From Pedobacter sp. SYSU D00535 (lineage in GTDB: Bacteria; Bacteroidota; Bacteroidia; Sphingobacteriales; Sphingobacteriaceae): DNA of 64,000 nt. The position numbers were made by a program, and so were the translations under genes. The notes under the pieces were generated by a model. It saw only the letters and a list, made by a program, of their open reading frames with translations, did no database searches and was not told where the DNA came from. Numbering within the stretch: the first letter of the stretch is position 1; the number at the start of each line of letters is the position of its first letter. The stretch is taken from positions 1-64,000 of the forward strand of contig NZ_JAFEWD010000008.1 of assembly GCF_017355855.1 (NCBI RefSeq), read 5' to 3'. Shown in pieces: positions 48,537 through 53,107 of this stretch.

Positions 48537-49535
<999 letters not shown>

Positions 49536-49538
49536 CTA

Positions 49539-50387
49539 TTAATTTTTATTCGTGTAATAATTCAAAATATTGTAAATCGGTTTCCTGATAATATTTCCAA
49601 CGCTTATTCCATATCCATCGGCCATCTCCTTTATAGTGTCCTGAAAAATATCAGCAATGGCCCCTGTGAAATGTACTGGCAAATCTGGGTGTTTTTCTGC
49701 AAGAGGAAGAATATAAGTTTCAAAAAAAATTTTAAAGCCATTTTTTACCAGATCGTCCACGTATTTTTCCTGTCTGTTCTCGGCCAGGAAGTCGGTGAAA
49801 GATGTCAAAAATAAGATTGGCTGAGGATTTCTGTAGACTTTGTCAAGGATCTGTTTTCTCTCGGGGTTGAATTTTTGAACGAATTTTTGTTCAAACTTCT
49901 CAGGAAGTAATCCGGTGAGATAATCTTTCAACAGACGTCTTCCTAGCCAGTTCGCTGATCCTTCGTCTGCCAGGATGTAACCCATCCCAAAGTTATTTTC
50001 TTTGATCTTCTTCCCGTTGAAATACGCAGCATTCGATCCGCTACCCAAAATACCTACTATTGCGGGCTGGTCGCCGCACGTTGCTATGGCCGACGCTGTC
50101 AAATCATGTCCTACAGTTACCTTCGCATAGCGGAAGAATTTGTTAAAGGCATTAACGATGATTTGTTGTCTATCTTTCGACGTTGCTCCTGCCCCATAGA
50201 AGTAAATCCGTTTGATCTCTTCGGCATAGGTGATGAGCTCGTTTTTTTTATTTAATAGATTGCTGATAAACTTCTCATCATACAGAAAAGGATTGATTCC
50301 TGGCATTCTAAATTCTGATACTATTTGCCCTCTGTCAGACAATTTCCAGTCTGCATTTCTCGACCCACTATAGATTACCGCAATCAT
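49539..50387 (-). CDS. BadF-type N-acetylglucosamine kinase homologue with degenerate phosphate loop
   Basis: A 282-residue ASKHA-fold protein, a diverged paralogue of the intact kinase at 52250-53107 with the same length and layout (IYFYGAGATSKD, VGHDLTASAIA, GILGSGSNAAYFNGKKI, GYILADEGSANWLGRRLL). The first phosphate-binding loop, DGGSTKTNW in the paralogue, reads YSGSRNADW here, losing the Asp and both Thr. GTGTNT is GSGSNA. ATP-dependent kinase activity is therefore doubtful. It sits 18 bp after pfkA and 6 bp before gapA, so a glycolytic sensor or regulator role is possible but unproven. Confidence 0.85.
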   Translation of the reverse strand: MIAVIYSGSRNADWKLSDRGQIVSEFRMPGINPFLYDEKFISNLLNKKNELITYAEEIKRIYFYGAGATSKDRQQIIVNAFNKFFRYAKVTVGHDLTASAIATCGDQPAIVGILGSGSNAAYFNGKKIKENNFGMGYILADEGSANWLGRRLLKDYLTGLLPEKFEQKFVQKFNPERKQILDKVYRNPQPILFLTSFTDFLAENRQEKYVDDLVKNGFKIFFETYILPLAEKHPDLPVHFTGAIADIFQDTIKEMADGYGISVGNIIRKPIYNILNYYTNKN

Positions 50388-50405
50388 TTTAATTTTACTC
50401 CAGCC

Positions 50406-51395
50406 TTAAATTGCTAGGATATGTGACATTTCAAGTAAATCTTCTTCCAGCTTCGTTGAGTGATTTGTTATTGACTCCTGAATGTCGGTTAACTGAATTT
50501 TATTAGATACGAGACCTACCATTTTCCTATTTTCGCCAGCGAGCAGTGCATTTACTGCTGCATAGCCAAACCGACTTCCTAAAACCCTGTCGAAACTGGT
50601 AGGTGATCCACCCCGCTGCAAATGTCCTAAAATAGTTACTTTAACATCGTAAAAATTAAATTTTTCTTTTACGCGTTTGGCCACATTATAAGCGCCGCCA
50701 TTTTTTTCGCCCTCTGCTATAATTACGATACTCGAGGTCTTATTACTTCCTGCACCTGCTTCAAGCTTGGAAATCAAGTCCTCAATTGCTGTATCCTTTT
50801 CGGGTAGCAAAATCGCTTCTGCGCCTCCGGCAATCCCTGCCTGCAACGCAATACACCCAGAATCTCTTCCCATTACTTCAACGAAGAAAAGCCTGTCGTG
50901 AGAAGCAGCAGTGTCTCTTATTTTGTCTATCGCGTCAATTACTGTATTGGTGGCAGTGTCATAGCCTAAGGTAAAATCAGTACCATAAAGGTCGTTGTCA
51001 ATAGTACCTGGCACGCCGATTACTGGTATGTCAAACTCTCTGGAAAGTAGCTCCGCACCCGTAAAAGTACCGTCACCGCCAATGGCAACAAGAGCATCAA
51101 TACCGGCTTCTTTAATGTTTTTATATGCGAAAGCTCTACCTTCCTTTGTTTTAAAATCAAGGCAACGAGCTGTTTTTAGTATGGTTCCTCCTAACTGAAT
51201 GATGTGGCATACTGAGCGGGCGTCCATCTTGATAAATTTTTTATCAATCATGCCTTGATACCCTTGTTGTATACCAACCATTTCTACGCCTGAATAAATC
51301 CCCGTGCGCACTACTGCGCGTACGCAGGCATTCATTCCTGGTGCATCACCCCCTGAAGTAAAAACACCGATTTTCTTAATAGTTGACACGCTCAT
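50406..51395 (-). CDS. pfkA: 6-phosphofructokinase
   Basis: ATP-dependent phosphofructokinase (329 residues) that makes fructose 1,6-bisphosphate; cytosolic. The ATP site is GVFTSGGDAPGMNACVRA near 10-27 and GGDGTFTGA near 109-117. The catalytic GTIDNDLYGTD is near 130-140, with Asp in TIDND. FVEVMGRDSGCIAL near 168 and LGHLQRGGSPT near 256 complete the family pattern. It is the first gene of the pfkA-kinase-like-gapA operon. A 15-bp palindrome lies 25 bp upstream of its start. Confidence 0.97.
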   Translation of the reverse strand: MSVSTIKKIGVFTSGGDAPGMNACVRAVVRTGIYSGVEMVGIQQGYQGMIDKKFIKMDARSVCHIIQLGGTILKTARCLDFKTKEGRAFAYKNIKEAGIDALVAIGGDGTFTGAELLSREFDIPVIGVPGTIDNDLYGTDFTLGYDTATNTVIDAIDKIRDTAASHDRLFFVEVMGRDSGCIALQAGIAGGAEAILLPEKDTAIEDLISKLEAGAGSNKTSSIVIIAEGEKNGGAYNVAKRVKEKFNFYDVKVTILGHLQRGGSPTSFDRVLGSRFGYAAVNALLAGENRKMVGLVSNKIQLTDIQESITNHSTKLEEDLLEMSHILAI

Positions 51396-51419
51396 TTGAA
51401 AATATTTGCCGAATATAAG

Positions 51420-51434
51420 GTGTAAGACTTACAC
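51420..51434. promoter_or_regulatory. perfect palindrome in the pfkA / Nudix-regulator promoter region
   Basis: GTGTAAGACTTACAC has two perfect 7-bp arms around one base. It lies in the 70-bp region between divergent start codons of pfkA and the Nudix-type regulator, in a spot where it could overlap the promoters of both. A good candidate operator for that regulator, not demonstrated. Confidence 0.6.
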
Positions 51435-51465
51435 TAAGCGAAAAATCTAAGAATTTTTTCCACTT

Positions 51466-52203
51466 TTGTGCGAACAATTATATTTTCACAATAAATATAC
51501 CGCTTTGCAAACTCCGCTTCCAAAATTTGATTCTGTATTCTCAGTTGACTGTGTAATCTTCGGGTTTGAAGAAGGTGTTCTTAAGATCTTGTTGATTGAG
51601 CGAAATGAGCCTCCGTTCAAAGATTGCTATGCGCTTCCCGGTTTATTTGTCGGGCATGATGAGGGGATAGACTATGCAGCGGAGCGGACCTTGTACGAGT
51701 TGACAGGACTGCGGGATATTTATATGGAGCAGTTGTACACCTTCGGCGACCTGGACAGGCACCCGGAGGGAAGAGTTATCACAGTTGCTTATTATGCATT
51801 GATCCGGCTGAGCAGTAAGATAGAGGTTAGGCCGCATTCCAACTACGCAAAAACAGCGTTCTGGCATCCGGTAGCAGACCTTCCTCAGCTGGCTTTTGAT
51901 CATACCCTGATTTTCCAGAAGAGCCTGGAGAAGATTCGGCGAAAGATTAGCGATCAGCCTATTGCCTTTGAACTGCTGCCGGAAAAGTTCACGCTGACGC
52001 AGTTACAGAACGTGTATGAGGCTATCCTGAACAGAAAGTTGGATAAGAGAAATTTTCGTAAGAAAATGTTGAATTATGGGATTTTGAAAGAGTTGGATGA
52101 GAAGCAAAGGGGCGTGTCTTACAGGGCCGCAACCTTGTATAAATTTGACAGAAGAAAATACGCCAAGGTATTTCAGAAAGAGCTTTCTTTCATTAAGGAA
52201 TAG
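51466..52203 (+). CDS. Nudix-domain transcriptional regulator (NrtR/AraR-like)
   Basis: A 245-residue protein with an N-terminal Nudix-fold domain (about 25-150) and a C-terminal winged helix (about 165-245, TLTQLQNVYEAILNRKLDKRNFRKK). In the Nudix box GLFVGHDEGIDYAAERTLYELTGL the REUxEExGU core is degenerate (RTLYELTG), so it should bind a ligand rather than hydrolyse. Known relatives are NrtR (NAD metabolism) and the Bacteroides arabinose regulator AraR. It is divergent from pfkA, with a palindrome between. The track start is a TTG at 51466, uncertain; a start a few codons further in cannot be excluded. Confidence 0.85.
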   Translation: MCEQLYFHNKYTALQTPLPKFDSVFSVDCVIFGFEEGVLKILLIERNEPPFKDCYALPGLFVGHDEGIDYAAERTLYELTGLRDIYMEQLYTFGDLDRHPEGRVITVAYYALIRLSSKIEVRPHSNYAKTAFWHPVADLPQLAFDHTLIFQKSLEKIRRKISDQPIAFELLPEKFTLTQLQNVYEAILNRKLDKRNFRKKMLNYGILKELDEKQRGVSYRAATLYKFDRRKYAKVFQKELSFIKE

Positions 52204-52249
52204 AATGAGAAAGCCTACAACACGTTAAAAGTGCTATAGGCCTCTCGCT

Positions 52250-53107
52250 TTAAGCTTTTGCGCGGTTGTCCACGTGAAACTGTACCAAGTCATCTATCGG
52301 AGAGCGAACCAGCCTGCCTATTTTCATGCCGTATTCTCCAGCAACTTCCTCAAGTATATCCCGAAAACTGTACCCCACAGATCCAATAACATTTAAGCTG
52401 TACTTTTGATAATTAGGGTAGTGGCTAACCAGGTTTTTGAAAAATTCGCTGAAACTTGTTTTTACTAGCTGACGAGTATAGCTCCGGTTCGCAGTACAAT
52501 CGTATACGAACTTTGCGAAGCTAGCACAGAACCTGTTTGCCAAAGGTTTGCTGTATACATTTTCCTGCACGTCATCAGGGGTAAGCTTAAACGTCTCCCA
52601 AAACTCTTTCCTCACTTCTTCCGGCATGTAACCTCTCAAATAATCTACCAGCAGTTTTTTTCCTATATGGCAGCCACTGCCTTCATCACCAAGAATATAA
52701 GCCCCAGAGTCAATGTGTTCTATGATTTCCTCCCCGTTATATATGCAGGTATTGGTCCCGGTACCTAAGATTGCTGCGAAACCTTCATTTTTGCCAAGTA
52801 GCGCCCGTGCAGCAGCAAGAAGGTCGTGGCCTACAAATACCTGGCTGCTGGTAAATACGGCTGAAAAGGCACCTGCCAATTCTGCTGCTTTTTCCTCATT
52901 ATGGACGCCTGCTCCGTAAAAGTTCACCTCTTCAATTTTTGACAGGTCCAGGTCTTGAGGAAGATTTTTTTTCAAAGAGTTGATTACATATTCCTGATCC
53001 ACGAAGTATGGATTGTATCCCTCTGTATTGAAATATACTTTCTTGTTATCCTCATTAAGTAAACACCAGTTAGTTTTGGTGGAGCCTCCGTCAGCAATGA
53101 TGATCAT
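52250..53107 (-). CDS. BadF/BadG-family N-acetylglucosamine kinase
   Basis: A 285-residue cytosolic sugar kinase of the ASKHA fold. The phosphate-1 loop is complete (IIIADGGSTKTNWCL, residues 2-16), with Asp6. Catalytic-region Asp lies in VGHDLLAAARAL, and phosphate 2 is GTGTNTCIYNGEEI. GDEGSGCHIGKKLLVDYL is the conserved family block. It probably phosphorylates GlcNAc or a related amino sugar salvaged from peptidoglycan or chitin. A diverged paralogue lies 2 kb away between pfkA and gapA. Single-gene unit, convergent with the Nudix regulator. Confidence 0.9.
   Translation of the reverse strand: MIIIADGGSTKTNWCLLNEDNKKVYFNTEGYNPYFVDQEYVINSLKKNLPQDLDLSKIEEVNFYGAGVHNEEKAAELAGAFSAVFTSSQVFVGHDLLAAARALLGKNEGFAAILGTGTNTCIYNGEEIIEHIDSGAYILGDEGSGCHIGKKLLVDYLRGYMPEEVRKEFWETFKLTPDDVQENVYSKPLANRFCASFAKFVYDCTANRSYTRQLVKTSFSEFFKNLVSHYPNYQKYSLNVIGSVGYSFRDILEEVAGEYGMKIGRLVRSPIDDLVQFHVDNRAKA

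Follow-up and report, generated by a model that had tools for sequence, protein, structure and literature searches.

A conserved sugar-kinase-like candidate pseudoenzyme encoded between pfkA and gapA in Pedobacter and its family

Results

The window analyzed here is the whole 64,000-nucleotide stretch (positions 1 to 64,000 of the forward strand) of contig NZ_JAFEWD010000008.1 from Pedobacter sp. SYSU D00535 (assembly GCF_017355855.1), a member of the Sphingobacteriaceae. Three genes follow one another on its minus strand: pfkA, a gene termed P1, and gapA, with 18 nucleotides between the first two and 6 nucleotides between the last two. The product of P1 is homologous to MurK/NagK-type sugar kinases, lacks key residues of the ATP site throughout its orthologues, and is probably a sugar-binding pseudokinase. 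Upstream of pfkA lie a divergent Nudix-type regulator and then P2, an intact paralogue of P1 (Table 1).

An earlier note on this DNA described P1 and P2 as two BadF-family proteins of nearly equal length that align end to end, and the two sequences, of 282 and 285 residues, do align over 284 columns with 31% identity (BLASTP, 2e-46). The BadF label stands by homology to MurK and NagK but not by Pfam, as both proteins score below the 31.5-bit cut-off of PF01869 (BcrAD_BadFG; P1 14.6 bits, P2 26.8 bits); MurK/NagK-type is therefore the best family name. The 370-bit cut-off of the NCBIfam equivalog model NF046058 (NagK_SO3507) is not reached by either protein (P1 19.2, P2 28.2). The closest solved relatives of P1 are PG1100 (1zbs), Q8A1P1 (1zxo), and the Tannerella forsythia proteins MurK and K1058, and the homology is full length (phmmer, 6e-48 to 1zbs, residues 2-281). 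PG1100 and Q8A1P1, putative NAGK/N-acetylmuramic acid (MurNAc) kinases, are the best matches of P1 in both sequence and fold; unlike P1, they keep intact DSGSTKTDW and GTGSN motifs. P2 is intact, as the earlier note had it, but it is not the nearest intact relative of P1. Nearer intact BadF genes are 33-41% identical to P1 and carry DSGST/SK..W and GTGSN-type loops, and P2 was dropped as the sole yardstick for comparison.

An AlphaFold2 model of P1, built from a 97-row alignment, has a mean predicted local distance difference test score (pLDDT) of 93.1 and a predicted template modeling score (pTM) of 0.87. The model overlays with 1zbs (Z 35.1, root-mean-square deviation (rmsd) 1.7, 279 residues aligned), MurK (8oqw; Z 34.9, rmsd 1.6, 275 aligned), K1058 (8oqk; Z 34.7, rmsd 1.9, 276 aligned), MurNAc-bound K1058 (8ow7; Z 34.5, rmsd 1.9, 275 aligned), and MurNAc-bound MurK (8ow9; Z 31.5, rmsd 2.1, 274 aligned), matches that carry no information on function. 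The predicted fold is intact, and the residue losses described below are therefore not part of a collapse.

P1 is widespread in the family. Among 300 genomes of the order, those listed being all from the family of the window, 291 contain a P1 match at ≤1e-60, with a best E value of ≤1.1e-77 in each. With the P1 query, no other BadF gene of the family among the matches listed scores better than 8e-66, and the 291 genomes are therefore counted, by score, as orthologue-bearing. Gene order and residues were examined in the 93-94 distinct P1 sequences from these genomes for which DNA was retrieved: 93 full-length orthologues, which represent 16 genus codes and one metagenome-assembled genome, and, in the residue table only, a 76-residue fragment from the locus of genome G112. 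A scan of genome contigs yielded only four named loci, three of which are exact protein copies of other sampled loci. In the sample of the class, only matches at ≤1e-62 were reported (20 of 295), and weaker degenerate relatives would fall outside it.

The pfkA-BadF-gapA order, seen first in the window, is conserved: pfkA lies directly upstream of P1 in 92 of 93 loci, and gapA lies directly downstream in all 93. Median gaps are 4 nucleotides to pfkA and 6 nucleotides to gapA, with an upstream gap of ≤25 nucleotides in 87/93 and a downstream gap of ≤10 nucleotides in 80/93. The sole exception is G066 (L054), where P1 stands beside gapA, pfkA is missing upstream, and the only pfkA elsewhere in the genome is a different one, 62% identical to that of the window. 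Conversely, G022 retains pfkA-gapA without P1. With the genes uncoupled in G022 and G066, an obligate partnership of P1 with PfkA or GapA was rejected. In the single-contig genome G112 (L077), a one-base indel within a run of T disrupts P1; the DNA there is 90% identical to that of a relative. Given the T run and the fact that G112 also has a split third BadF gene, both splits are probably sequencing errors.

The roles of individual residues were taken from the published MurK structure (PMC10465942) and mapped onto the P1 alignment. Two sets served for comparison: 43 P2-type sequences and 22 other relatives that belong to neither the P1 nor the P2 class, this second set including one 134-residue fragment (L099) and two sequences nearer to P2 (L094 and L096). 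The phosphate-1 Asp at position 6 is an aromatic residue in all 94 P1 sequences (Tyr in 74, Phe in 20), and the column of the β-phosphate ligand Thr10 contains Arg (63), Asn (12), Lys (11), His (4), Tyr (3), or Asp (1). Neither the Asp nor the Thr of the DxGxT phosphate-1 motif of MurK and NagK kinases occurs in any P1 sequence, and the loop is restored in none. Thr116 is replaced by Ser in 93/93 orthologues, Ala195 is kept in 3/93, and the adenine-stacking residue Tyr244 is Tyr in 0/93 and Phe in 7. Among the 22 other relatives, position 6 is Asp (21) or Glu (1), position 10 is Thr (15) or Ser (7), Thr116 is present in all 22, position 195 is Ala in 20 with one Ser and one gap, and position 244 is Tyr (11), Phe (6), or His (4) with one gap. 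The P2-type sequences have Asp6 in 41 (two are cut off), Thr10 in 42 with one Met at a cut start, Thr116 and Ala195 in all 43, and Tyr (40) or Phe (3) at position 244. The Ser198 column is variable in intact relatives too (Ser 9, Ala 6, Met 4, and Thr 2 of 22) and is therefore not diagnostic.

Some of the losses that the earlier note read from the window are thus narrower across the family. Of the phosphate-1 residues it listed, the Asp and Thr10 are indeed lost and the Asp loss is conserved, but the second Thr is not diagnostic, its column being Thr in 11, Ala in 5, Cys in 5, and Ser in 1 of the 22 relatives. The change from GTGTNT to GSGSNA holds in its first Thr, with Ser116 invariant, but exchanges Thr for a similar residue. 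The replacement of the C-terminal GSVG by GAIA does not extend to the family, where the column contains Ser in 49, Thr in 26, and Ala in 4 of the 93 orthologues.

The contacts to the sugar hydroxyls are retained. The catalytic Asp95 and Asp141 are each present in 93/93 orthologues and Asn119 is present in 90/93; Asn32 and Gly67 are each kept in 93/94. A loop specific to P1 lies at the sugar substituents, with Asn131 in 92/93, Asn132 in 91/93, and Tyr or Phe133 in 91/93, followed by Gly134 in 93/93, a glycine also found in 14 of the 22 intact relatives. The Phe137 column is Tyr in 88, Phe in 4, and His in 1. In the MurK study, acceptance of MurNAc is ascribed to small residues at positions 133-135, and the glycine of NagK is contrasted with the proline of MurK at position 134 (PMC10465942). 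Gly134 of P1 matches the NagK glycine rather than the MurK proline, and by the steric argument of that study the Tyr or Phe at position 133 disfavors MurNAc, such that the P1 pocket should not admit its lactyl group. As judged from the alignment, ATP-site residues have been lost selectively while sugar-hydroxyl contacts have stayed, with neither loss nor retention being total.

Ratios of nonsynonymous to synonymous substitution rates (dN/dS) were estimated by the Nei-Gojobori method for 239 pairs preselected by shared k-mers; many of these pairs have saturated dS, and pairs share branches and are not independent. The three copies of the G112 locus (L077, L101, and L103) were left out of the medians and of the count of 93, and a ratio of 0.25 from an out-of-frame G112 fragment was dropped. 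Median dN/dS for P1 is 0.040 at dS of 0.1-0.6 (9 pairs, maximum 0.199) and 0.016 at dS of 0.6-1.5 (29 pairs), and the corresponding medians for PfkA are 0.023 (11 pairs) and 0.025 (39 pairs). Two P1 pairs, L021 with L028 and with L029, have values of 0.185 and 0.199. Decay, for which a ratio near 1 was sought, is contradicted by these medians, and by this measure P1 is firmly constrained by purifying selection, though faster-evolving than its neighbors.

The trees are quick searches with support values from the Shimodaira-Hasegawa-like approximate likelihood ratio test (SH-aLRT) only. In an 89-row tree, P1 forms one clade (SH-aLRT 100) on a stem of 0.89 changes per column, and its sister group has a support of only 68; on this tree P1 has a single origin in the family. 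One branch of the PfkA tree (99) unites the P1-bearing pfkA genes with that of G022, and P1 was therefore lost in G022. The genera g5 and g7, in which pfkA and gapA are adjacent with no P1, neighbor this branch (five rows, 97), so that P1 was either inserted into an existing pfkA-gapA pair or lost from g5/g7.

Within the class sample, ten genomes from other families contain intact relatives of P1 (matches at ≤1e-62, loci L056-L065), all with Asp at position 6; an eleventh, L078 (G010), comes from the family of the window and has Glu at this position. At four of the 11 loci the intact kinase is linked to pfkA. In L056 and L063 it lies right behind pfkA, and in L057 and L065 an aldehyde dehydrogenase of 537-540 residues is placed between the two genes. 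The sole PDB match of the L057 enzyme at ≤1e-60 is an NADP-dependent glyceraldehyde-3-phosphate dehydrogenase (3prl), and the name GapN-like for this enzyme is a lead. At four other loci (L061, L062, L064, and L078) the intact kinase lies between an NrtR-like regulator and a haloacid dehalogenase (HAD) enzyme, which exceeds the NCBIfam cut-off for β-phosphoglucomutase in the three cases tested (L061, L062, and L064) and was assigned by eye in L078. A glycoside hydrolase family 65 (GH65) protein is also present in L062, and a similar one by eye in L064.

A GH65 phosphorylase together with β-phosphoglucomutase would leave free glucose in need of phosphorylation, and the intact branch is therefore plausibly glucokinase-like, although we know of no member that has been assayed. 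The BadF kinases of this branch may be unrecognized glucokinases, and the ancestor of P1 was plausibly a glucokinase-type kinase of a glycolytic locus. Against this ancestry, the L057 aldehyde dehydrogenase passes no NCBIfam cut-off, with its best score to a lactaldehyde dehydrogenase model, and at three of the 11 intact loci (L058-L060) no glycolytic neighbor was recognized by eye. ROK proteins are also encoded in the genome of the window, so that the BadF proteins need not be its glucokinases.

The Nudix regulator adjoins the pfkA-P1-gapA trio in nearly all P1 loci compared, the exceptions being L054 and L075, and NrtR/AraR-type Nudix regulators also adjoin intact BadF kinases elsewhere. The copy in the window is probably a sugar-responsive regulator of the glycolytic cluster. 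A second pfkA in the genome of the window (L174, G000:C20:128775-129749), 85% identical to the window pfkA, has no BadF gene within 1.5 kb on either side. A third, intact BadF paralogue of the family (L066-L069 and L087) adjoins genes that by eye are TolC-like efflux or response-regulator-like.

Table 1. Features of the P1 locus in the window and of two loci with intact relatives
Feature	Position	Strand	Basis
P1, MurK/NagK-type sugar-kinase homologue, probable pseudokinase	49539..50387	(-)	282-residue open reading frame, homology, residue table, model
P1 degenerate phosphate-1 loop YSGSRNADW, residues 6-14	50346..50372	(-)	translation, 94 orthologues
pfkA, ATP-dependent 6-phosphofructokinase, first of the conserved trio	50406..51395	(-)	TIGR02482, 411.5 bits vs 371.35 cut-off
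gapA, type I glyceraldehyde-3-phosphate dehydrogenase	48537..49532	(-)	TIGR01534, 459.9 bits vs 367.2 cut-off
NrtR/AraR-type Nudix transcription regulator, divergent	51466..52203	(+)	PF21906 and PF19368 over cut-off
P2, intact BadF/NagK-type kinase paralogue, loop DGGSTKTNW	52250..53107	(-)	285-residue open reading frame, alignment, residue table
Aldehyde dehydrogenase of L057, GapN-like (a lead)	L057 3941-5563		PDB match 3prl
Aldehyde dehydrogenase of L065, GapN-like	L065 1176-2789		resemblance

Discussion

P1 combines a conserved fold, purifying selection, and the loss of key catalytic-site residues across the orthologues examined, the combination by which a pseudoenzyme is recognized. The proposal of the earlier note, a sugar-binding protein without the ATP loop that is fixed in an operon, is borne out at the level of sequence: key ATP contacts are lost, hydroxyl contacts are always or almost always kept, gene order is maintained, and selection is purifying. 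The reading favored here is that P1 is probably a sugar-binding pseudokinase that serves as a glycolytic sensor or adaptor; that it has lost ordinary kinase activity, taken alone, can be held with more assurance. Without the key residues of the Mg-ATP site, P1 would bind a hexose (glucose, N-acetylglucosamine (GlcNAc), or a 6-phosphate) and not phosphorylate it. Its two domains would close on the sugar, as those of MurK do, and this closure would be the signal; for MurK, a closure of 4.5 to 6.9 Å on sugar binding is reported (PMC10465942). The closed or open form may then act on a partner, which could be PfkA or GapA, encoded in the same gene cluster, or an active BadF paralogue, and the outcome would be a glycolytic capacity matched to sugar supply. 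A more specific form of this idea, which is tentative and on balance doubtful, would make P1 a glycolytic governor: a dead glucokinase that reads free glucose or a hexose 6-phosphate in the pocket it has kept and, as it opens and closes, directly controls how active PfkA and GapA are or how they assemble.

Several observations weigh against the sensor reading. At the ATP site, the β-phosphate contact Ser9 is retained in 94/94 sequences and Gly117, which contacts the γ-phosphate through its main chain, in 93/93; the Ser241 column is Ser or Thr in 75 of 93, the exchange at Thr116 is conservative, and neither the catalytic base Asp95 nor the DEG(S) block has been lost, as would be expected of a slow or unusual kinase. 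At the sugar site, the hydrophobic N-acetyl cavity is variable, with Tyr (49), Phe (30), Cys (8), and others in the Phe34 column and Phe (52), Leu (19), Ile (16), and others in the Phe35 column, so that GlcNAc itself is uncertain as a ligand. Position 10 is Asn, Tyr, or Asp in 16/94 sequences, where phosphate binding would thus be weak; because these 16 have no basic residue there, the idea that Arg10 binds phosphate across the family was rejected. By dN, P1 evolves faster than PfkA by a factor of 1.46 (median of 223 pairs) and faster than P2 by a factor of 2.2 (median of 53 pairs). Finally, no P1 accompanies pfkA-gapA in the g5, g7, and g22 genomes examined, and neither enzyme therefore needs P1 everywhere.

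Among the alternatives, the one that survives best, although it is unlikely, makes P1 a regulatory pseudo-subunit that would tune an active BadF paralogue, either P2 or the third, by forming a heterodimer with it, the pfkA cluster only setting the expression of P1. MurK and K1058 are dimers, and when sugar binds, the N-domain of the neighboring subunit remodels the active site (PMC10465942). In addition, genomes with a P1-level match mostly have at least three BadF matches, and 18 of the 20 genomes with weaker matches only have one. However, G139 (99% complete) has P1 and one other match only, in the neighboring gene, and several P1-less genomes retain P2. On the evidence of G139, an obligate pairing of P1 with the third paralogue was rejected.

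An active kinase with a rebuilt donor site, using another donor or a metal-free mechanism, would account for the invariance or near invariance of Asp95, Asn119, Asp141, Ser9, the phosphate-2 glycines, and Ser116. This alternative is improbable, as the columns of Thr10, Ala195, Ser198, and Tyr244 vary and only the aromatic residue at position 6 is fixed, which is unlike a dedicated donor site. Still less probable is a purely structural scaffold of a PfkA-GapA assembly from which sugar binding has gone: the position of P1 between exactly these two genes would suit it, but the sugar-hydroxyl contacts are strictly retained and G066 has P1 without a linked pfkA. A decaying pseudogene kept by its operon place and by translational coupling to gapA, for which the loss of P1 in G022, its loss or failure to arise in g5/g7, and its faster dN would speak, is scarcely credible given median ratios of 0.016-0.040, a reading frame open in 93 distinct orthologues, near-invariant hydroxyl contacts, and G112, a probable sequencing error, as the only broken case among the loci examined.

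Similar to the MurNAc kinase MurK of T. forsythia (8oqw and 8ow9) and to K1058 (8oqk and 8ow7), P1 adopts the fold along its whole length in the predicted model, and it shares with MurK the sugar-hydroxyl contacts Asp95, Asn119, and Asp141, as well as Asn32 and Gly67. The main differences from MurK are the absence of the DxGxT Asp and Thr, of Thr116, and of Tyr244, the retention of Ala195 in 3/93 only, and Tyr/Phe133-Gly134 in place of Ser133-Pro134.

Pseudoenzymes derived from sugar kinases are already known as a kind, including ROK repressors, signaling hexokinases, and Gal3. The kinase function of NagC and Mlc has been lost, and yeast Gal3 is a sugar-kinase relative that signals without catalysis. 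To our knowledge, no pseudokinase of the NagK/MurK branch is known from a glycolytic cluster. Searches of an open-access paper collection returned no report of the gene, most subscription papers being outside this scope. The ROK repressors (Lmo0178 (5f7r), NagC, and Mlc) use a kinase fold as a sugar sensor and in principle provide a parallel for P1, and Lmo0178 is among the weaker fold matches of the P1 model (Z 16.1). Unlike these repressors, P1, with 282 residues, has no DNA-binding domain, and its place is in the NagK/MurK branch. A further parallel is offered by AtHXK1 and Gal3, in which sugar binding and domain closure can signal without phosphorylation; unlike P1, both are eukaryotic and of other branches, and AtHXK1 has its moonlighting role alongside enzymatic activity. 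The S177A variant of AtHXK1 exhibits hexokinase signaling without catalysis (PMC8256278), and NagC and Mlc are placed in the glucose-kinase superfamily (PMC12696579). The terms BadF, inactive, and pseudo do not occur in the accessible portion of the latter source (PMC12696579).

Most sampled members of the family thus carry, within their core glycolytic cluster, a gene whose product resembles a sugar kinase but is very probably no ordinary kinase. Metabolic models of the family would err at the very first step if they took P1 for a kinase on the strength of its homology. If P1 senses a sugar, a metabolic enzyme would have been turned into a regulator inside the pathway that it once served, and, should the governor form of this reading be true, bacteria would have in P1 their own equivalent of glucokinase regulatory proteins, one made out of the kinase itself.

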